Source: a virus. From it: DNA of 36,432 nucleotides. The stretch spans positions 1 through 36,432 of the IMG/VR virus record IMGVR_UViG_3300005939_000021. One strand, given 5' to 3'. The notes under the pieces are model-generated. The model ran no database searches, was not told the origin of the DNA, and worked only from the letters and a program-made list of their open reading frames with translations. The position numbers were made by a program, and so were the translations under genes. Of this stretch, positions 3,220 through 35,895 are shown one piece after another. How positions within the stretch are numbered: the stretch's first letter is position 1; every line of letters starts with the position of its first letter.

Positions 3220-3395
3220 AAGACCAGGAATTAATTGATTTATTAAAAGATGTGTCAGAAGTTGATATTGGTTGGAATTTCGGATTGCTTCGTGAAAGGG
3301 CAGCTACGATCCTACAATCAATAAATTCTGATGCTCAGGCTGAAAGCCCGAACGTTGGAGATAATGAGGACAAGAAGGACGAAGTGAACAGTTAA
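3216..3395 (+). CDS. Small acidic hypothetical protein
   Basis: 59 residues, starting by an ATGA overlap with the frame before it. An N-terminal amphipathic helix (DLLKDVSEVDIGW) leads to a strongly charged tail rich in Glu, Asp and Lys. Composition and helical pattern look coding, but no motif is recognised. It belongs to the cluster of tiny genes between the zinc-ribbon gene and terminase. Confidence 0.5.
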   Translation: MKDQELIDLLKDVSEVDIGWNFGLLRERAATILQSINSDAQAESPNVGDNEDKKDEVNS

Positions 3396-3414
3396 ATTTT
3401 TTAAGATTATAAAT

Positions 3415-3976: not shown

Positions 3977-4471
3977 ATGCCAGCGCATAAAGGTAATTCA
4001 TACGCAAAGGGTAACAAGGGCGGCGGTAGAGATACCGATTATAAGGATGAATATACAAAGCTAGTATATAACTATTGCTTGCTAGGCGCAACAGATGAAC
4101 AATTAGCAACATACTTTGATGTTTGTGTAAAGACTATTGATAATTGGAAGAAGAAGCATAAAGAGTTTTATGCTGCCCTTAAAAAAGGTAAAGACGAGGC
4201 AGACGCCACAATCGCACACAGCCTATTCCATAGAGCGAAAGGGTACGAACACCCAGAAGACAAGATATTCAACGATAGTGGAGTTCCGTTAATTGTTTCA
4301 ACTGTCAAACATTACCCTCCTGACACAACAGCATGTATATTCTGGATGAAGAACAGACAACCTGCCTTATGGCGTGACAGACGCGAAAACGAAATAATAC
4401 TTCCGAAAGATATTATAGAAGGATTCATATATGAAACAGATGAAGCCGATGCTAAATCTAACGCAGAATAA
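3977..4471 (+). CDS. terS: Terminase small subunit
   Basis: 164 residues. The N-terminus is Gly/Lys-rich, followed by a helix-turn-helix (LGATDEQLATYFDVCVKTI, about residues 38-56) that would recognise the packaging site. Then come GYEHPED (near residue 88) and the family signature YPPDTTACIFWMKNRQ with PALWRDR (about residues 113-136), seen in many small terminases. It would oligomerise, bind phage DNA and hand it to the large subunit. It is the first gene after the promoter at 3903-3933, and the large subunit follows after one small gene. Confidence 0.85.
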   Translation: MPAHKGNSYAKGNKGGGRDTDYKDEYTKLVYNYCLLGATDEQLATYFDVCVKTIDNWKKKHKEFYAALKKGKDEADATIAHSLFHRAKGYEHPEDKIFNDSGVPLIVSTVKHYPPDTTACIFWMKNRQPALWRDRRENEIILPKDIIEGFIYETDEADAKSNAE

Positions 4472-4473
4472 CC

Positions 4474-4677
4474 ATGACAGGCAAAGCAAAAACATTAACC
4501 GTTCCTGATAAAAATAGACTCACAGATTTAGTCTTACAGGAATGCAAATTATGGTGGGAGAGTGAAGGAATTACCATAGGACTATCCGATAATGAAGCGA
4601 AAGAATTGGACGCATTGATTGAACTATACGAAAAATCCAATGAAGCCGAGAATAAAACCAACAAAGAAACAGCATGA
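4474..4677 (+). CDS. Small protein, paralogue of the 3654-3821 gene
   Basis: 67 residues, starting two bases after the small terminase stop. Residues 16-39 match the product of 3654-3821; this copy has an extra charged tail (NEAENKTNKETA) whose codons overlap the start of the large terminase gene by 38 bases. Two copies flanking the small terminase suggest tandem duplication or gene insertion between copies. No domain recognised; it could be a packaging accessory. Confidence 0.6.
   Translation: MTGKAKTLTVPDKNRLTDLVLQECKLWWESEGITIGLSDNEAKELDALIELYEKSNEAENKTNKETA
4497..4587 (+). repeat. 91-bp direct repeat, copy 2
   Basis: Partner of 3677-3767, 80 of 91 positions identical. The last 24 bases (from AGTGAAGG on) differ at only one position. 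Confidence 0.8.
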
Positions 4678-5947
4678 AGCGTATGGACTACTTCAAGACG
4701 ACCATACAAAGTTCATACTATTCGGCGGTGGTGCAGGCGGTGGTAAGTCCTGGTTGATCTGTGAATGGATAGTGGTCTGGATGTACATGTATCCTGGAAC
4801 ACGCTACTTCATCGGAAGAAAAGAATTAAAAAGATTAAGACAATCAACATTAATAACGTTCTTTAAAGTACTGAAACATCATAACATTCCTGCCGGTGAC
4901 TGGAAATACAACGGACAAGATAACTTCATTGAACTGACAAATGGCTCAAGGGTTGACTTGTTGGATCTGCAATACTATCCATCTGATCCATTGTATGAAC
5001 GATTCGGTTCGATTGAATATACAAGTGGTGCGATTGACGAGGGAGGTGAAACAGAATTCAAAGCGTTCGACATTCTAAAGACTAGAATTGGAAGGTGTGA
5101 GAATAAAAAATACAATCTGTTTCCGAAAATGCTCATCACGGCGAATCCAAAAAAGAATTGGCTATACAGCACTTTCTTCAAGCCGTTCAAGAAGGGCATC
5201 CTTCCAAAAGGATATGCGTTCATTCAATCGCTCGCTCTTGATAATAAGTATCTCGATAAAGTATATCATGATGCGCTTGATTCGATCACCGACAAGGTCA
5301 CTAAGCAACGCCTGAAGTATGGCAACTGGGACTACGACGATGACGATGACGCACTGATGCGATTTGAGCAGATTAGCGATCTGTTCACTAACACGTTCGT
5401 CAATGGTTCGATAACTCCATACATAACGGCGGATGTTGCCAGGTTTGGAAGCGATAAGGCTGTCATCATGCTCTGGGAAGGTCTTCGAGTGATTAAGATT
5501 CGGACGTTCAATATCAGCAAGACAACGGACATCGAAGAAGCGATCAAGAATCTTGCACATAAACACCACGTGCCACGAAGCAGAATCATAGTTGATGAAG
5601 ACGGTGCCGGCGGGGGAATAGTAGACCATCTGTCATGTGTTGGATTCAAAAATGGAAGTAAGGCTAAGAATAAGATGTATGAGAATCTAAAGACTGAATG
5701 TTATTATAAGCTTGCTGACTACGTGAATGGAGGAAAGATATATATCAAGACCACAACACACAACGAAGCGATTACAGAAGAGTTGGCTGTGATACTTCGT
5801 GACAAGATTGACGATGAGAACAGATTACGAGTGATCAAGAAAGAAAAGCAGAAGGATTTATTAGGCCGGTCACCGGATTACGCAGATACTTTGATGATGA
5901 GAATGTATCCTGAATTAGTAAAGAAACGATCACTGACACACGCATAA
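4640..5947 (+). CDS. terL: Terminase large subunit
   Basis: 435 residues from ATG 4640; a TTG start at 4619 would add seven residues and is less likely. N-terminal ATPase: Walker A GGGAGGGKS (residues 29-37) and Walker B GAIDEGGE with Asp133-Glu134. C-terminal RuvC/RNase H-like nuclease: Asp265 (ADVARFG), Asp319 (IIVDEDGAGGG) and Asp416 (DYADTLMM), which would hold the two metals. It is the motor and headful or cos nuclease that translocates DNA through the portal. Length is normal and all key residues are present. It overlaps the preceding small gene by 38 bases. Confidence 0.95.
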   Translation: MKPRIKPTKKQHEAYGLLQDDHTKFILFGGGAGGGKSWLICEWIVVWMYMYPGTRYFIGRKELKRLRQSTLITFFKVLKHHNIPAGDWKYNGQDNFIELTNGSRVDLLDLQYYPSDPLYERFGSIEYTSGAIDEGGETEFKAFDILKTRIGRCENKKYNLFPKMLITANPKKNWLYSTFFKPFKKGILPKGYAFIQSLALDNKYLDKVYHDALDSITDKVTKQRLKYGNWDYDDDDDALMRFEQISDLFTNTFVNGSITPYITADVARFGSDKAVIMLWEGLRVIKIRTFNISKTTDIEEAIKNLAHKHHVPRSRIIVDEDGAGGGIVDHLSCVGFKNGSKAKNKMYENLKTECYYKLADYVNGGKIYIKTTTHNEAITEELAVILRDKIDDENRLRVIKKEKQKDLLGRSPDYADTLMMRMYPELVKKRSLTHA

Positions 5948-27946: not shown

Positions 27947-28567
27947 ATGGAAACAAAATTAAACCTTTACCAGAAAATTCAGGCGGTATCCAACGAAGTA
28001 ATGAACATCGAGAAGGATATGACCGTCGGTTCTGGTTCATACAGCTATAAGGCTGTATCTGACAATGCAGTCACGCTGCAAGTAAAGAAAGCAGAAACAA
28101 AGTATAATCTTCTGTCAATTCCGATCAAGCAGGAATGTGTACATTCTGAAGTATTGAAAGTCGTAAAGAACGGCAAGGAATCAATCGTACATATCAATGA
28201 CATTAAGATGACATTGCGTATCATTGATTTGGACAAGGTAGAAGACTTCGTTGATATTGAATCTTATGGCAAAGGTCTTGACAATGGCGATAAGGGATTC
28301 GGCAAAGCATCAACGTATGCAAGAAAATACGCACTCCTAAATGCTTACAAGATAGCAACCGGAGAAGATCCTGACGCAGAAAAAAGCGAAGACGTCAAAA
28401 CGGTAACAATCGACAAAAAGAAAGTCGCTGTTTTAGATGCCTGCCTAAGAGATGAAATATTGCAGCATAATGTTTTATCACATTTCGGTGTCACATCAAC
28501 AACTGACCTAACAGATGAAAACATCGGTATAGTTTACAATCAGTGGAAAGCTAAAAACATTATATAA
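27947..28567 (+). CDS. ERF-family single-strand annealing protein
   Basis: 206 residues. LNLYQKIQAVSNEVMNIEKD (residues 4-23) and SYSYKAVSDNAV (31-42) open the ERF domain, and the diagnostic GLDNGDKGFGKASTYARKYA segment lies near residues 110-130, followed by LLNAYKIATGEDPDAE. ERF proteins, like P22 Erf, anneal complementary strands in phage recombination. The gene overlaps by one base the exonuclease gene, its expected partner. The C-terminal part is helical. High confidence. Confidence 0.9.
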   Translation: METKLNLYQKIQAVSNEVMNIEKDMTVGSGSYSYKAVSDNAVTLQVKKAETKYNLLSIPIKQECVHSEVLKVVKNGKESIVHINDIKMTLRIIDLDKVEDFVDIESYGKGLDNGDKGFGKASTYARKYALLNAYKIATGEDPDAEKSEDVKTVTIDKKKVAVLDACLRDEILQHNVLSHFGVTSTTDLTDENIGIVYNQWKAKNII

Positions 28568-30462: not shown

Positions 30463-30873
30463 ATGGTAAACAAAGTAACACTACTGGGAAATGTTGGCAA
30501 AACACCCGAAACGAAAACACTCGAAAACGGAACGAAGGTAACTAACTTCACTTTAGCGACATCGGAATCATACAAAAACAAAGAAGGCGAAAAGGTCACC
30601 AAAACAGAATGGCATAACATCGTAGCCTGGAAAGGTCTTGCCGGAGTGATCGAAACCTATGTCAAAAAAGGGCATCAACTTTACATTGAAGGCAAGATCA
30701 CAACTCGTTCGTGGGATGACAAAGACGGCAACAAGAAGTATATGACAGAAATCGTATGCAGTGATATGAAGATGCTCACTTCTAAGCACGAAACAACGTC
30801 AAACGATGCACAACCCACAGATCAGGTGAACGCATCAGACAGCGCACCTGAAGATCAATCATTGCCTTTTTAA
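30463..30873 (+). CDS. ssb: Single-stranded DNA-binding protein
   Basis: 136 residues. Classic SSB start NKVTLLGNVGKTPETKTL, OB-fold strand motifs with TEWHNIVAWKGLA (near residues 46-58) and QLYIEGKITTRSWDDKDGNK (about 69-88), then a polar linker and the acidic tip DQSLPF that binds partner proteins. It would coat single strands in replication and recombination. Start context AAAAACA-ATG. Complete and normal in length for a phage SSB. Confidence 0.97.
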   Translation: MVNKVTLLGNVGKTPETKTLENGTKVTNFTLATSESYKNKEGEKVTKTEWHNIVAWKGLAGVIETYVKKGHQLYIEGKITTRSWDDKDGNKKYMTEIVCSDMKMLTSKHETTSNDAQPTDQVNASDSAPEDQSLPF

Positions 30874-30882
30874 TAAACAACT

Positions 30883-31146
30883 ATGAAACAATCAGCAAAG
30901 CAAGCAATCCGAAAGCTAATTATCAGATATTTCAAAGCAATACGTCCGGGCCAAAAAATCAATGGCGATATGCTTTGCGAGTACTGCCTTGAAGAATCGG
31001 ACAAAGATTTCAAGATTTGCGATGACCCTGGTATAAATCGAAAAAAGTACAAACTTGTGCTTCGATATATGCGAGAATTGAAGCAAGAAAAAGTCATTGA
31101 TTACGAATGTATAGATGTAATTAATTCTGTCTATAAGAAAAAATAA
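30883..31146 (+). CDS. Small helical hypothetical protein
   Basis: 87 residues, strongly basic at the N-terminus (KQSAKQAIRKLIIRYFK) with a CEYCLEES motif (residues 32-39) and a C-terminal helix (YKLVLRYMRELKQEKV). The pattern suits a small winged-helix or zinc-linked DNA-binding protein. It closes the operon behind ssb, nine bases after its stop. Not recognised by family. Confidence 0.55.
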   Translation: MKQSAKQAIRKLIIRYFKAIRPGQKINGDMLCEYCLEESDKDFKICDDPGINRKKYKLVLRYMRELKQEKVIDYECIDVINSVYKKK

Positions 31147-31158
31147 TCATGAAAACAT

Positions 31159-31189
31159 TTGCAATCAGCTTTCTGAATCGTTATATTTG
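31159..31189 (+). promoter_or_regulatory. Promoter before short RNA / HTH gene
   Basis: TTG (31159-31161), 20-base spacer, TATATTTG (31182-31189); same -7 octamer and spacing as the promoters at 582 and 26980. The 11-mer ATTTGCAATCA occurs twice, at 31157-31167 and 31186-31196, overlapping both promoter elements, so it may be an operator. Confidence 0.75.
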
Positions 31190-31195
31190 CAATCA

Positions 31196-31263
31196 AGTCT
31201 TCATCAAAATTCATTGATTTGCTTTACCTAATTGACAGCATTCGTGCCGTCGATTAGGTTTTT
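31196..31263 (+). ncRNA. Predicted short RNA or attenuated leader
   Basis: From the promoter's expected start (about 31196) to a strong terminator is under 70 bases with no open frame of note. The product would be a stable stem-loop RNA, or a leader whose read-through expresses the HTH gene at 31293. Confidence 0.5.
31226..31263 (+). terminator. Intrinsic terminator
   Basis: ACCTAATTGAC (31226-31236) pairs with GTCGATTAGGT (31249-31259) through 11 positions, including one T-G pair. An A/C mismatch follows, then GCA-TTCG-TGC with a UUCG tetraloop. TTTTT follows at 31259-31263. It ends transcripts 34 bases before the HTH gene ATG. Confidence 0.85.
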
Positions 31264-31292
31264 GCGACACTAAAAATGTAAAACAGATTAAC

Positions 31293-31448
31293 ATGCACAC
31301 CCTAATAAGAAAAAAACAAAAGTATTATTCCGTTGCTGATTATGCCGGAATGAACCAGGTCACACCGAAAACAATTTACGAATGGCTGAAATCCGGCAAG
31401 CTAGATTCAACGTATGTCGGCAAGATGTTATTTGTTAGATTAAAGTGA
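31293..31448 (+). CDS. Excisionase-like helix-turn-helix protein
   Basis: 51 residues: YYSVADYAGMNQVTPKTIYE (11-30), then WLKSGKLDSTYVGK and FVRLK. This is the MerR/excisionase winged-HTH fold with the recognition helix at about residues 24-33. Such proteins act as recombination directionality factors or small transcription regulators. Its stop codon lies within a few bases of the right end of the TnpB insertion, and the empty-site sequence would also stop here, so it is probably nearly intact. Expression sits behind a promoter plus terminator. Confidence 0.75.
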   Translation: MHTLIRKKQKYYSVADYAGMNQVTPKTIYEWLKSGKLDSTYVGKMLFVRLK

Positions 31449-31560
31449 ACTACCCACCCACGCCAGAGGCGATGGGATGGGCTTCAGAAGTCAACACTCC
31501 TCGTAACCGAGGCAGTTCGTTCTGATTTTTAAGAGTGTGTTCCCCACTCAAATGATTTTT
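31449..31560 (-). ncRNA. Predicted omega RNA (reRNA)
   Basis: In IS200/IS605 elements the omega RNA overlaps the 3' end of tnpB and ends at the right end. Here the minus-strand transcript would fold CCTCG-GTTA-CGAGG (31499-31512) and a long hairpin (31453-31481). The guide would be read from the flanking DNA, that is, the end of the HTH gene. The 5' limit is arbitrary. Confidence 0.5.
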
Positions 31561-32625
31561 AAAAGCAAATGATTTAATATTTATGGCAGCATTAACATCT
31601 CTATCAAGAACAGAATTACATTTAGGACAAGTCCATTCTCTGTCTTTAAGTGTAAGTTCTTTGTTGATGTATCCACAGACACTACAACACTTTGATGATG
31701 GGGCAAAACGACCTATTCTTAGGATGTTTTTACCATACCAGTCAGCCTTGTATTCTAACATAGTTACAAAAGTTGACCAGCTTACGTCTGAAATTGCTTG
31801 TGCTAAATTGTGGTTTTTAACCATGCCCGCCACATTCAAATCCTCTAAGCAAATTGTTTGGTTCTCACGAATTAGCTTAATAGATGTTTTGTGTAGAAAA
31901 TCTTTGCGTTTGTTGACTACTTTTTCATGTAGTAAGGCAAGACGTTGTTTTGTTCTCTTGCCTTTGTTCTTTGAATATTTACGCTGTACATATTTTAATT
32001 TACTTTGTGCTTTACGAAGGTTTTTAGGATTTTCAATTACTTCTCCATCAGATGTAATAGCAAAATCTTTAATGCCTAAATCAATACCAATAGTAGTGCT
32101 TTTATTGATTGTTGCTTTTTGTGGAATAACTTCATTTGTGTCAACCAATATTGAAGCAAAATACTTTCCTGTTGGAGTAACGCTAATAGTAGCACTTTTT
32201 ATAGTTCCTTTAATTGGTCGATGCAAAACAATATCAATACCCTCCTTAAACTTAGGAATTACTAACAAGTTATTTTCAACTATCACATTTTGTGGTACTG
32301 AAAATGATTGTCTGCCTTTGTGTTTTGATTTGAATTTAGGAAAACCAGAGCCTTTAAAAAACTTCTTAAAAGCAATATCCATATTCTGTATAGATTGCTG
32401 TAAGGATTGGCTGTTTACTTCCTTCAACCACTCACATTCCTTTTTAAGTTCAGGAAGTTGTTTGATTAAATCGAAAGGTGAAAAGTTGTGTTTAGAGCCT
32501 AAATATGCACTGTTTTTTGTTTCGAGAGCTAAATTATATACGAATCTACTACTGCCAATATGTTTGACAATTAACTCTTTTTGTGAGTTATTAGGATATA
32601 TTCGATATTTTAATCCTTTAAGCAT
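31450..32625 (-). CDS. tnpB: TnpB, RNA-guided nuclease of IS200/IS605 element
   Basis: 391 residues from the ATG at 32625 (MLKGLKYRIYPN is the usual start; ATG at 32634 adds three). Split RuvC domain: Asp182 (IGIDLGIKDFA), Glu261 (ICLEDLNV) and Asp343 (LDRDVNAAIN), with a zinc finger at Cys314, Cys317, Cys333 and Cys336. All catalytic residues are present, so cleavage activity is expected. TnpB uses the RNA from its own 3' end to cut sites next to a motif and helps keep the transposon in place. Stop at 31450-31452 is next to the element end. Confidence 0.95.
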   Translation of the reverse strand: MLKGLKYRIYPNNSQKELIVKHIGSSRFVYNLALETKNSAYLGSKHNFSPFDLIKQLPELKKECEWLKEVNSQSLQQSIQNMDIAFKKFFKGSGFPKFKSKHKGRQSFSVPQNVIVENNLLVIPKFKEGIDIVLHRPIKGTIKSATISVTPTGKYFASILVDTNEVIPQKATINKSTTIGIDLGIKDFAITSDGEVIENPKNLRKAQSKLKYVQRKYSKNKGKRTKQRLALLHEKVVNKRKDFLHKTSIKLIRENQTICLEDLNVAGMVKNHNLAQAISDVSWSTFVTMLEYKADWYGKNILRIGRFAPSSKCCSVCGYINKELTLKDREWTCPKCNSVLDRDVNAAINIKSFAFKNHLSGEHTLKNQNELPRLRGVLTSEAHPIASGVGG

Positions 32626-32717
32626 ACCTAACATAATACAAAAATCATACCAATTTATACAAAACAGATATATTGTCAAAAATATTAAAAATGTAAGTGT
32701 AAAGGAGTCGCTTACAT

Positions 32718-32743
32718 CCCATCAAGCCTTCGGCATCAATGGG
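32718..32743 (-). repeat. Left-end hairpin of TnpB element
   Basis: Subterminal hairpin, outer stem CCCAT/ATGGG and inner stem GCC/GGC with a TTC (plus strand) loop. GGAG at 32704 and CTCC at 32751 can extend it. Typical recognition structure for a Y1 transposase. Confidence 0.7.
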
Positions 32744-32774
32744 TTTTACGCTCCATTTATAAATTAATCCGGTT

Positions 32775-32807
32775 TTGTAATTCGTATCGTTTTTATTCTT
32801 ATCTTTA
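32775..32807 (+). promoter_or_regulatory. Promoter for replication operon
   Basis: TTG (32775-32777), 22-base spacer, TATCTTTA (32800-32807). The same -7 octamer occurs at 3926. It lies just outside the TnpB insertion and 117 bases before the initiator gene, with a leader peptide and a hairpin between. Confidence 0.5.
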
Positions 32808-32838
32808 CCTCGATAGTAAAACCTTAAACGAGAGATTC

Positions 32839-32931
32839 ATGAAAATATTAGCCTTAGTAACTAGCAAGCCCACCTCTCGGGGGACTATCCTTATTAGTGA
32901 ACAGGCTTTTTTATTTTCACATTATGAGTAA
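32839..32931 (+). CDS. Possible 30-residue leader peptide
   Basis: ATG at 32839 reads MKILALVTSKPTSRGTILIS and on to TAA at 32929-32931, overlapping the initiator start by eight bases. AAGCC at 32866-32870 can pair with GGCTT at 32904-32908, just before six Ts, so it spans a possible attenuator. No codon run (such as repeated amino acids) is seen. Confidence 0.35.
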   Translation: MKILALVTSKPTSRGTILISEQAFLFSHYE

Positions 32932-33700
32932 TACATTTATTTTATTATCCAGGTCTTTAATTGAAAGCGAAGTTTTTGCTTCACAGAAACTTTTAAAAAT
33001 ATGGATATGGTGCTTATTAAAAGCAAATTTCAAAACTAAATTTGTACCTGTAAAAATTGGTAAGGGTGAAAAATCAGTTAAGATCAAAAGAGGGGAGTTT
33101 TTATTTGGTAGGTTCAAAGCAGAAGATGAGTTGTTTATTGACGGCTCAACCATATACAAATTGATAAAAAAACTTGAAGAAATGGGTAATATATCAATAC
33201 AAAGTAGCAACCATTATTCTATTATAACTATTTGTAATTATGACACTTACCAAGATGGGAACAACTACAAAGTAGCAGCCGATGAGCAGCCAAGTAGCAG
33301 CCAAGTAGCAGCCGATGAGCAGCCAAGTAGCACAACTAAGAAGGAGAATAAAGAGAATAAAGATAAAAAATACAAGGCGTTTATTTCTTTATTTAACGAA
33401 ATAACAAATAGAAAATTCAAAGGTTCTGATAAAGTTGAGGGGCAATTTAATGCAAGGCTTTTAGAAGGTAATCACTATTCTGATTTCAAAACAGCAATTA
33501 CAAACGCAAGAAATTCTAAACACCTAAAGGAAAACCCGGAATATTTAACACCTGAATATATTACCAGACCTAATAAGCTTGACCAATGGATTAATGCAAA
33601 ACCTGAAAAGAAAGTGATTAAAAAACAAGAGGGCAACCCTAATTCTATATTTCCAACCTTAGAGGAATTTGCAGCCAAAGGGATAACATTTGATGACTAA
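32924..33700 (+). CDS. Phage replication initiator (replisome organiser)
   Basis: 258 residues from ATG 32924; a GTG at 32897 is also in frame but would overlap the leader hairpin. N-terminal winged helix (SLIESEVFASQKLLKIWIWC, then RGEFLFGRFKAEDELFIDGS and TIYKLIKKLEEMGNISIQ) is the phage replisome-organiser type. A repetitive linker (residues 116-138, with VAADEQPSS twice) is coded by an 11-bp iteron array. The C-terminus (SDKVEGQFNARLLEGNHYSD and TPEYITRPNKLDQWIN) is the conserved phage C-terminal domain seen in such proteins. It would bind the array and recruit the helicase encoded downstream. Confidence 0.8.
   Translation: MSNTFILLSRSLIESEVFASQKLLKIWIWCLLKANFKTKFVPVKIGKGEKSVKIKRGEFLFGRFKAEDELFIDGSTIYKLIKKLEEMGNISIQSSNHYSIITICNYDTYQDGNNYKVAADEQPSSSQVAADEQPSSTTKKENKENKDKKYKAFISLFNEITNRKFKGSDKVEGQFNARLLEGNHYSDFKTAITNARNSKHLKENPEYLTPEYITRPNKLDQWINAKPEKKVIKKQEGNPNSIFPTLEEFAAKGITFDD
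33270..33335 (+). repeat. Six tandem 11-bp iterons, candidate replication origin
   Basis: Six adjacent 11-mers: AAGTAGCAGCC, GATGAGCAGCC, AAGTAGCAGCC, AAGTAGCAGCC, GATGAGCAGCC and AAGTAGCACAA. The period is exactly 11 bases (one helical turn), within the linker of the initiator gene. The next 100 bases are AT-rich (AAAGAGAATAAAGATAAAAA), as expected of a DNA-unwinding element. This matches the lambda origin layout within gene O. Confidence 0.75.
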
Positions 33701-33711
33701 AAAATAAAGAT

Positions 33712-33942
33712 ATGAAATACATGAAAGAAGCTAAAGAATATGGATGGGTTGTTATAAATCAAAATAATCCAAACTTGCCAGATACTGACATTGTATATGA
33801 TAAAACGTTTTCAAGAATAAAGAGGGACGCTATACATGAGTTTACTAAAAATAACGATTTTAATTGGCGGTACTGGTATAGTAAATGTAATTTCAGATGT
33901 GTAAGGGCAACGAGAACAATAAATATGAATATAGATGCTTGA
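33712..33942 (+). CDS. Small hypothetical protein
   Basis: 76 residues with an aromatic and basic central part (NDFNWRYWYSKCNFRCVRA, about residues 48-66). Its N-terminal segment (AKEYGWVVINQNNPN) and the W-x-YWYSK-x-x-x-CV form recall a small family of phage hypothetical proteins that read as a GWVV-like start plus an RCVRV-like end. It sits between initiator and helicase genes and its stop overlaps the next start (ATG 33935). Function unknown. Confidence 0.6.
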   Translation: MKYMKEAKEYGWVVINQNNPNLPDTDIVYDKTFSRIKRDAIHEFTKNNDFNWRYWYSKCNFRCVRATRTINMNIDA

Positions 33943-34222
33943 CAAACTAACAACCCGACTAAGCCACGCCTTCAGGGGCCTGAATGAAGTCAAAACAGAC
34001 GAGCAAGGTAAGAAGCTGATACTAGATGCAAAGAAGTCTATGCGGGAGGTATGGACACACAGGGAGGCATATATCGATAAATTAGAATACGATAATATGC
34101 AGATGGGATTTGCATTACACAAGCAGGATCAGAGGGAATTTGAATTTGATTTACTAAAAAGAGCATTAAAAAATACGGTTGCGATAGATGAACTAGAAAC
34201 TAAAATCAATGGATCAAGTTAA
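33935..34222 (+). CDS. Helical hypothetical protein, replication cluster
   Basis: 95 residues, almost entirely helical and charged, with Arg/Asp/Lys heptad-like spacing (GKKLILDAKKSMREVW, YIDKLEYDNMQMG, FEFDLLKRALKNTV). It overlaps the gene before by eight bases and the helicase gene by 14. Located where lambda-like genomes have helicase-loading or accessory factors, it may be a loader or adaptor, but no motif proves it. Confidence 0.55.
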   Translation: MLDKLTTRLSHAFRGLNEVKTDEQGKKLILDAKKSMREVWTHREAYIDKLEYDNMQMGFALHKQDQREFEFDLLKRALKNTVAIDELETKINGSS

Positions 34223-35141
34223 AGACGTAATTTATTTGGATGATTGCCGGGCCTCTATGCTGGAGGGTTTCCGCAATGGCTATCAGCCAGGAGAAACAAC
34301 ACACTTCAAAGATATTAACGGACATTATTCACTATTAAGAGGCGATGTTACGTTATTCGGTGGTATCGGAAATCATGGAAAATCTACATTTTACGTGCAA
34401 CTGGCAGCCCTTAGGGCGCTAAACAATAAAGAAAAATTTGCAGTATTTTCACCAGAAATGCACCCGCCTGACTACTTTTATAACGATGTTATTCACATGA
34501 TAACGGGGACGTATCCAGCAAAAGGTGCAACGGATGAGGGCGAATATGTCCGACAAATGAACTGGGTAAAGGAAAGGTTCTTTTATATTTTTCCTGAAGA
34601 TGAAAGCCCAACGCCAGACTATATTAATTCACGCTTTGAACAGGTTATAAAAGTGCATGGTGTGGACGGTGTTTGTGTTGATCCGTTCAATCAATTAGTG
34701 AATGATTGGCATACCTCAGGCAGGGATGACAGATATATCAGTACATTTCTTCAGACAGCCAAGCGATTTGCACAGAAGCAGAATGTTTATTATCATATTC
34801 TGGTACATCCAAAAGGGAATATCAGTACCGATGATGCTGGGGATCTTAAATGTCCTAATGTGTTTAATCTTGCTGGAGGTGCTATGTGGAGTAATCATGC
34901 GGATAATATAATCTTCATTCACAGGCCGCATAAATTGACTGATCAGCATAATATGGATTCGCTGATCAGTATTGCTAAGATTAAGAAGCAGAAAATTGTA
35001 GGTATCCCGGATGATATTCCATTGACATTCAATCGCAGCACAAACCGATATTCAGATAAATATGGAAGCCCATTTACAAAAGATTACGGATTGACATCCC
35101 CGGCAAAGGAATTATTTGAGGTGGATAAAGACCCGTTTTAG
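34209..35141 (+). CDS. DnaB-like replicative helicase (RecA fold)
   Basis: 310 residues, lacking the N-terminal primase-binding domain of full DnaB. Walker A GGIGNHGKST (51-60), Walker B-like segment VDGVCVDPFNQL with Asp158, a FSPEMHP motif (near residue 80) and HILVHPKG followed by SNHADNIIFIHRP in the sensor region, as in SF4 helicases. It would unwind the fork at the in-gene origin. The 310-residue length is short, so it may act as a hexamer without its own loader domain. Start overlaps the previous gene by 14 bases. Confidence 0.85.
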   Translation: MDQVKDVIYLDDCRASMLEGFRNGYQPGETTHFKDINGHYSLLRGDVTLFGGIGNHGKSTFYVQLAALRALNNKEKFAVFSPEMHPPDYFYNDVIHMITGTYPAKGATDEGEYVRQMNWVKERFFYIFPEDESPTPDYINSRFEQVIKVHGVDGVCVDPFNQLVNDWHTSGRDDRYISTFLQTAKRFAQKQNVYYHILVHPKGNISTDDAGDLKCPNVFNLAGGAMWSNHADNIIFIHRPHKLTDQHNMDSLISIAKIKKQKIVGIPDDIPLTFNRSTNRYSDKYGSPFTKDYGLTSPAKELFEVDKDPF

Positions 35142-35244: not shown

Positions 35245-35895
35245 ATGAACGAATGTAAAAAAGAAAAAAGGGGAGGGGTTTGTTTTTATAATTGTGATAA
35301 TATAGAGTTTATGAAAACTAAACCTGATAATTATTATGACCTTGCGATAGCTGACCCGCCTTATGGAATTGGAGCGGCTAAAAGAAAAAGCTATTTCTCA
35401 GGTAACGCAAAAGAATACATTGTAAAAGATTGGGATAGTGCAATCCCAACTCTTGAATATTTCGAGCAGCTTTTTAGGGTTAGTAAAAATCAAATTATTT
35501 GGGGTGGTAATTATTTTATAGAATATTTACATAGCTCGAAGTGTTGGGTTGTATGGGATAAAATTAACGGTAATAATGATATGCCGGATTGTGAATTAGC
35601 TTGGACTAGTTTTGAAAAAAAGATGTTATTATTTAAAATGCACCATTTTAGTAAAGACATTAAGATAAAAAGAATACACCAAACTCAAAAGCCAGTAAAG
35701 TTGTATAGGTGGTTATTGCAACAGTTTGCGGAAACGGACATGCAAATATTAGACACGCACGGAGGAAGCCTCACGAATGCAATTGCTTGTGATATAGAGG
35801 GCTTTAGCCTTGATATAATAGAAATAGATACGGAATACTTTACCGACGGCTTAAACGCCTTTGATGAGTACAAACGCCAACTCAAACTATTTTGA
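35245..35895 (+). CDS. DNA methyltransferase (N4/N6, class beta type)
   Basis: 216 residues. DPPY at residues 37-40 (motif IV), then IIWGGNYFIEYL and, near the C-terminus, HQTQKPVKLYRWLLQQFAE followed by motif I-type D170-THGGS and ITEYF-like ends (EIDTEYF). The order motif IV then motif I fits the beta class. D-T-H-G-G-S replaces the common F-G-G-S-G-T in motif I, a variant seen in phage methylases. No restriction gene accompanies it, so it is an orphan that may shield phage DNA from host restriction. Target base and site cannot be read from sequence. Confidence 0.85.
   Translation: MNECKKEKRGGVCFYNCDNIEFMKTKPDNYYDLAIADPPYGIGAAKRKSYFSGNAKEYIVKDWDSAIPTLEYFEQLFRVSKNQIIWGGNYFIEYLHSSKCWVVWDKINGNNDMPDCELAWTSFEKKMLLFKMHHFSKDIKIKRIHQTQKPVKLYRWLLQQFAETDMQILDTHGGSLTNAIACDIEGFSLDIIEIDTEYFTDGLNAFDEYKRQLKLF

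Follow-up and report, generated by a model that had tools for sequence, protein, structure and literature searches.

Tandem 11-bp iterons inside a phage initiator gene form a probable replication origin, with counterparts across a family of winged-helix initiators

Replication origins made of repeats that lie inside the gene of their own initiator are already known, among others from phages lambda and SPP1 and from plasmid pSK41. In lambda the iterons occupy the middle of gene O and are followed by an AT-rich stretch; in the O protein, a flexible linker joins the N-terminus, which binds DNA, to the C-terminus, which binds the helicase loader (PMC6022878, PMC7466680). Certain in-frame deletions within O have been reported to fail in cis yet to yield a protein that still functions in trans (PMC6022878). 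The gp38 protein of SPP1 is an origin-binding protein that acts with a helicase loader and a DnaB-type helicase, and the direct repeats and AT-rich unwinding element of oriL are found inside its own gene (PMC6316719). In pSK41, the winged-helix N-terminal domain of Rep, which forms tetramers, binds repeats (four Rep boxes) located centrally in the rep gene; the repeat stretch encodes a dispensable linker, and the C-terminal domain contacts primase (PMC5703833). The 11-bp form of such an array has also been described. Gene 18 of Salmonella phage L includes six imprecise 11-bp repeats, TGTCCAACGGA, called the likely origin of that phage (PMC8022706), and the record of Shigella phage Sf6 carries a deposited putative rep_origin in gene 43.

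We analyzed a 36,432-nt stretch of viral DNA (IMG/VR record IMGVR_UViG_3300005939_000021, positions 1 to 36,432; hereafter the window). The record is a single viral contig without a host genome. An ORF at 32924-33700 on the plus strand encodes a protein of 258 amino acids with a winged helix (residues 1-110), a disordered linker (about 117-144) and a C-terminal domain. Its PHROG matches identify it as a predicted replication initiator, the best being to 'DnaD-like helicase loader' (4.7e-24), 'replication initiation protein' (1.6e-13) and 'O-like' (4.1e-8), with a second 'O-like' family at 1.8e-5; the match to PHROG 2514, 'DnaD-like helicase loader', covers residues 4-149. A Pfam scan up to E 0.1 returned Phg_2220_C only. 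This C-terminal Phg_2220_C-like domain (33383-33595, plus strand) is the presumed contact with the helicase or its loader; the C-terminus matches PF09524 at E 2e-5 and 25 bits, just under the 27-bit cut-off. The DnaB_2 domain of the DnaD C-terminus was missing from the Pfam matches, and we did not assign the protein to the DnaD/DnaB_2 class of primosomal proteins.

An AlphaFold2 model, built from an alignment of 35 family members, places the winged helix at pLDDT 93-97 over residues 11-100 and the linker below 50 over residues 121-144. In the model, helix 74-86 is likely to be the recognition helix, and the wing consists of strands 90-94 and 99-103. A Foldseek search of viral structures gave replisome organizers as the best neighbours; an O protein, from phage ECP1, also matches, with a TMt of 0.90 across 85 columns. 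The same kind of search against the PDB gave no match at E <= 0.001 and only generic winged helices.

The array occupies 33270-33335 on the plus strand and reads AAGTAGCAGCC GATGAGCAGCC AAGTAGCAGCC AAGTAGCAGCC GATGAGCAGCC AAGTAGCACAA, six abutting 11-bp iterons of types A, B, A, A, B and A', at the location and in the order reported in the initial annotation of this DNA. That annotation described all six as perfect. They are indeed six and abutting, but B differs from A at 3 of 11 positions, and the last, truncated unit, A', matches A at 8 of 11. It is the 33-bp unit ABA that repeats perfectly, and two such units form the array: at period 33, TRF finds 1.9 copies at 100% match spanning 63 bp, with a score of 126 that is the highest in the window, and at period 11 it finds 5.7 copies at 76% match. 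Because 33 bp correspond both to three 11-bp units and to eleven codons, tandem duplication of three units preserves the DNA phase together with the reading frame. The array is read as residues 116-137 or thereabouts, within the linker that the model predicts to be disordered, and the earlier proposal that it encodes the initiator's linker is borne out. In a close relative (L116, positions 3331-3400), the array appears to be made of 22-bp duplications, that is, of two units, which shift the reading frame; arrays may also grow by numbers of units other than three.

The linker is of low complexity as well as predicted disordered, and the 33-bp unit doubles as an 11-residue protein repeat, VAADEQPSSSQ, so that repetitive amino acids combined with codon bias might be thought to produce the DNA pattern by themselves. 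We find this scarcely tenable. When the array is stacked as 6 x 11 positions, column agreement is 58/66, whereas 5000 synonymous-codon shuffles of the same protein gave a mean of 41.8 and never exceeded 51; the next-best 6 x 11 stretch anywhere in the window scores 47. The suggestion that the array goes beyond protein repeats alone thus holds for the window, and the homologues described below lead to the same outcome. We therefore rejected the protein repeat as a complete explanation.

Homologues of the initiator were gathered from viral contigs by protein similarity and by the conserved core DNA described below, and from named phages. For each, the DNA autocorrelation of the 110 nt following the CNYDTY motif was compared with synonymous-codon shuffles. 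Over 60 genes the mean z was 2.07 at period 11 and 1.77 at period 22, and all other periods remained below 0.65. Period 11 was significant in 32 of 47 non-redundant homologues (thinned to less than 60% identity, with related contigs not fully independent) and fell below significance in the remaining 15; each other period from 7 to 19 was significant in 0-5. The search leaned on the CNYDTY motif, and these frequencies describe that sampling. In the subset found through core DNA, period 11 was significant in 9/17 genes, the next-best period in 2. Most of the named phages that tblastn recovered with a homologous N-terminus agree on the 11-bp period. In Riemerella phage PT03 and Flavobacterium phage FCL-2, whose matches to the window initiator are confined to the C-terminal domain, an 11-bp array did not reach significance (z -1.1 and 1.4). 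The lambda O gene served as a control; it lacks an 11-bp period, its peak being at 23-24.

The unit itself varies from phage to phage: AAGTAGCAGCC in the window, TTGAACAGCAA in L037, AAGTAACAACC in L002, AGCGGGACAGC in a Sulfitobacter phage, ACAACAAATCA in Staphylococcus phage SAP33 and CAATCAAGTGT in phiAT3. Across the homologues, the 11-bp period runs through all three reading frames and encodes different residues. The initial annotation had named, as an outcome that would speak against an origin, homologues that keep the amino acids and lose the 11-bp DNA pattern; the homologues show the reverse, retaining the period while unit sequence and encoded amino acids change. Since the period exceeds synonymous shuffles and is kept while the residues change, selection on it acts at the level of DNA, not of protein.

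Among described systems, phages L and Sf6 provide a better comparison for this array than lambda does. In gene 43 of Sf6 the array has period 11 (z 3.4), as it does in ST160 (z 3.8), and the winged helix of the window initiator matches Sf6 gp43 at E 8e-14 in pairwise BLAST; the N-terminal domain matches those of ENT47670, ST160 and Sf6 at E 1e-15 to 8e-14. Sf6 thus shares with the window a homologous winged helix, 11-bp repeats just after it in the gene, and a helicase gene downstream, and phage L, from its published description, shares the in-gene 11-bp repeats. Judged on the 11-bp unit and on N-terminal homology to Sf6, ST160 and ENT47670, the window locus is of the Sf6/phage L type. E. coli K-12 phages HK75 and mEp234 also have initiators closely related to that of Sf6 and ENT47670. 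It differs from both phages in unit sequence, in a far lower overall identity and in its C-terminal domain, which is Phg_2220_C-like in the window. The Sf6 array (L296, 1186-1281) consists of TTGTCCAACGG units in two groups of three with a spacer of roughly 30 bp, for a total of six as in the window; the two groups abut in the window and are spaced in Sf6.

The resemblance to lambda gene O noted in the initial annotation holds for the layout: in both, the iterons sit centrally in the initiator gene, ahead of an AT-rich stretch. It does not extend to the repeats. In lambda an O dimer binds each of four 18-bp iterons, which are spaced at intervals of about 20-24 bp, whereas those of the window are 11 bp long and abut, probably with one monomer per unit. 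With no lambda-O match in the Pfam scan up to E 0.1 and no 11-bp period in lambda, we do not place the initiator in the lambda O family. SPP1 gp38 is similar in having repeats and an AT-rich element inside the initiator's own gene, and pSK41 Rep in having a winged-helix N-terminus and repeats within the linker-coding stretch. Rep is, however, a plasmid initiator of the RepA_N class, while the window protein comes from a phage and has no RepA_N match in the Pfam scan up to E 0.1; that class was rejected for it. Like the known intragenic iteron origins, the window locus has direct repeats between N- and C-terminal domains, and these repeats are conserved as DNA.

A seventh, separate iteron copy, AAGTAGCAACC, which is absent from the six listed in the initial annotation, is located at 33202-33212 (plus strand), 68 bp upstream of the array and within the codons for the wing of the winged helix. 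It has 1 mismatch to A and is the sole other near-copy of A (<=1 mismatch) in the window. For each homologous gene we located the position in the 700 nt upstream that best matches the unit of that phage. In 17 of 44 unique arrays this position fell in the same 15-nt zone, 20-34 nt before the CNYDTY motif, where about 1 would be expected; the window's member of this set is the copy at 33202. When wing copies were ranked against the units of other phages, the phage's own unit came first of 71 in 13 genes and among the top four in 28. The ranking is suggestive evidence for an extra copy, though not clean, and we rely on the position test instead.

Between the wing iteron and the array lies a conserved DNA core of 28 bp, TAACTATTTGTAATTATGACACTTACCA (33225-33252, plus strand), over the codons T-I-C-N-Y-D-T-Y-Q. 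Synonymous-site conservation, measured in 43 non-redundant homologues, is strong here. The ACT codons of the core are kept in 25/32 and 27/32 cases, against 7.4 and 8.1 expected (z 7.5 and 7.8), and ATA is used at the preceding isoleucine in 21/25 (8.8 expected). A search for TAACTNTNTGTAANTANGANACTTANCA gave at least 119 stretches, and all 65 of the 65 distinct ones that were read belong to the initiator gene in the same frame. The core is not retained in the more distant named phages.

The N-terminal domains of four close relatives, L002, L116, L118 and L037, are 53-75% identical to that of the window. Their C-terminal domains and that of the window show no significant match to each other, the best being a marginal E of 0.004 between the window and L002. 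The binding domain and the array thus travel together, with the C-terminal domain exchanged next to the array. Such a swap is expected if the winged helix has to fit its sites while the C-terminal domain has to fit a helicase or loader. Unit similarity also correlates with similarity of the DNA-binding domain. Partial correlations with unit similarity were 0.22 for the recognition helix, 0.21 for helix 63-70, 0.20 for helix 10-19 and 0.26 for the wing, the last value being confounded because the wing encodes an iteron. The value for the recognition helix is modest and does not clearly exceed those of other parts of the domain, and covariation of this helix was rejected as a specific signal.

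Directly 3' of the array is an AT-rich, purine-biased stretch at 33336-33420 (plus strand), a candidate unwinding element. Such a stretch had been reported in the initial annotation, and it is real, with an AT content of 72-85% over 33341-33420 and low stability (z about +2.3, unstable, over 33336-33420). The minimum of stability within the gene, however, falls upstream of the array, at about 33186-33246, where the DNA is slightly less stable still; the core region coincides with a second low-stability peak. Across the family, the array has a higher GC content than the DNA around it, and an A-rich stretch of lower stability comes after it. The least stable 40 bp start 60-150 nt past the CNYDTY motif in 28 of 46 homologues, compared with 6.4 expected. 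An AT-rich element adjoining the repeats therefore appears to be a family feature, with unwinding as its candidate role. GC skew, a check that had been proposed in cumulative form for the complete genome, was run here on the window; it shows no origin signature and is positive almost throughout. As an origin signal it is uninformative, since nearly all the genes share one strand and the sole broad negative stretch is at the location of an antisense tnpB gene.

The initiator gene is surrounded by replication genes. As previously noted, a helicase gene is nearby: it lies downstream at 34209-35141 (plus strand) and encodes a DnaB-like replicative helicase of 310 amino acids (Pfam DnaB_C, 1.2e-9; PHROG DNA primase/helicase, 7.7e-22). 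Between initiator and helicase, a 95-amino-acid protein (33935-34222, plus strand) has a weak DUF7018 match (E 0.003, below cut-off), and from its position we would guess that it might be a loader. Further upstream, the replication and recombination module includes a single-strand DNA-binding protein (30463-30873, plus strand; Pfam SSB, 2.7e-36) and an Erf-like single-strand annealing protein (27947-28567, plus strand; Pfam ERF, 7.4e-11; PHROG, 7.8e-24). A DNA methyltransferase gene (35245-35895; N6_N4_Mtase, PHROG 2e-36) directly follows the helicase gene. A lone TnpB gene (IS605 OrfB; Pfam 3e-23) sits on the minus strand at 31450-32637, just upstream of the initiator gene and antisense to its neighbours inside the replication module; the ORF list showed no evident TnpA. 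Immediately ahead of the start of the initiator, at 32868-32895, a GC-rich stretch, CCCACCTCTCGGGGGACTATCC, resembles a small hairpin and might be either the end of a tnpB-associated RNA or a regulatory element; Rfam gave no match in 31000-34300.

These surroundings bear on two other functions that a repeat array bound by a winged-helix protein might have. Winged-helix proteins are often regulators, CodY and ArsR/SmtB-type folds are among the weak PDB neighbours of the initiator, and the array sits in a transcribed region, all of which would suit an operator through which the initiator represses its own operon or times early transcription while replication starts elsewhere. However, the array is about 350 bp inside the gene and not at a promoter, with an unstable A-rich stretch after it and helicase, SSB and Erf genes beside it, and such arrays are called origins in the deposited annotation of Sf6 and in the published view of phage L (PMC8022706). 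We consider it unlikely that the array is an operator in place of an origin; the two roles could also exist side by side. Plasmid parC and tubC arrays have units of about 11-12 bp, and TubR is one of the folds in the PDB that weakly resemble the initiator (TMt 0.55-0.57), as might be anticipated for a centromere-like or packaging-like site serving partition or DNA packaging. Such a site is very improbable here. The window proteins scanned, a part of its ORFs, gave no ParM- or TubZ-like match; the terminase genes (3977-5947) are about 28 kb away; and the array is tied to a replication initiator in every homologue examined.

We conclude that the array is very probably the theta-type replication origin of this phage, where the phage's own initiator would bind, open AT-rich DNA and recruit the helicase. 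This reading is supported by the nearby DnaB-like helicase, SSB and Erf genes and by the family-wide 11-bp DNA period; it is weakened by a GC skew that lacks an origin signature, by the lower stability of another region of the window's initiator gene than the AT-rich stretch 3' of the array, by the modest correlation of iterons with the recognition helix and by the 15 of 47 homologues below significance at period 11. We infer that the winged-helix domain binds each 11-bp unit and that, with one unit per helical turn, successive monomers line up head to tail on one face of the DNA. Six or seven monomers would then form a bent nucleoprotein filament, whose strain would open the adjacent stretch at 33336-33420 and possibly also 33186-33250. 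Tethered through the array-encoded flexible linker, the C-terminal domain would recruit the phage's DnaB-like helicase or its loader. With the site inside the initiator's own gene, the binding domain and its site would move and evolve as a pair, with exchange of the C-terminal domain.

Named members of this initiator family infect Staphylococcus, Lactobacillus, Vibrio, Sulfitobacter and enterobacteria, among others. A search through genome contigs from 84,980 species of bacteria and archaea gave no confirmed relative, and a plasmid search recovered only Staphylococcus records. The 11-bp rule as a family-wide feature, the iteron within the wing and the conserved core appear to be new; in the open-access literature, outside which most subscription journals lie, we found no paper on any of the three. 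On balance, we favour the view that this broad family of winged-helix phage initiators has one origin code. It would consist of 11-bp, one-turn, head-to-tail iterons in the linker codons followed by an A-rich unwinding stretch, with an extra iteron in the wing codons of many members and, in those bearing CNYDTY, the 28-bp core in between. The iteron sequence would diversify with the winged helix and C-terminal domains would be swapped, so that, for many phages, sequence alone might suffice to read origins and their specificities.

If this is right, the origin of an uncultured phage could be located to the base from its sequence, and the path from winged-helix initiator to 11-bp linker array would locate origins in a large family of phages whose initiators are annotated only as 'DnaD-like' or 'replisome organizer'. 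The many natural pairs of winged helix and iteron would provide material for learning recognition rules, and the locus would show clearly how selection can act on a single stretch of DNA both as an origin and as the code for a protein linker. Both the iteron in the wing and the core would add specific, testable elements to the textbook picture drawn from lambda.
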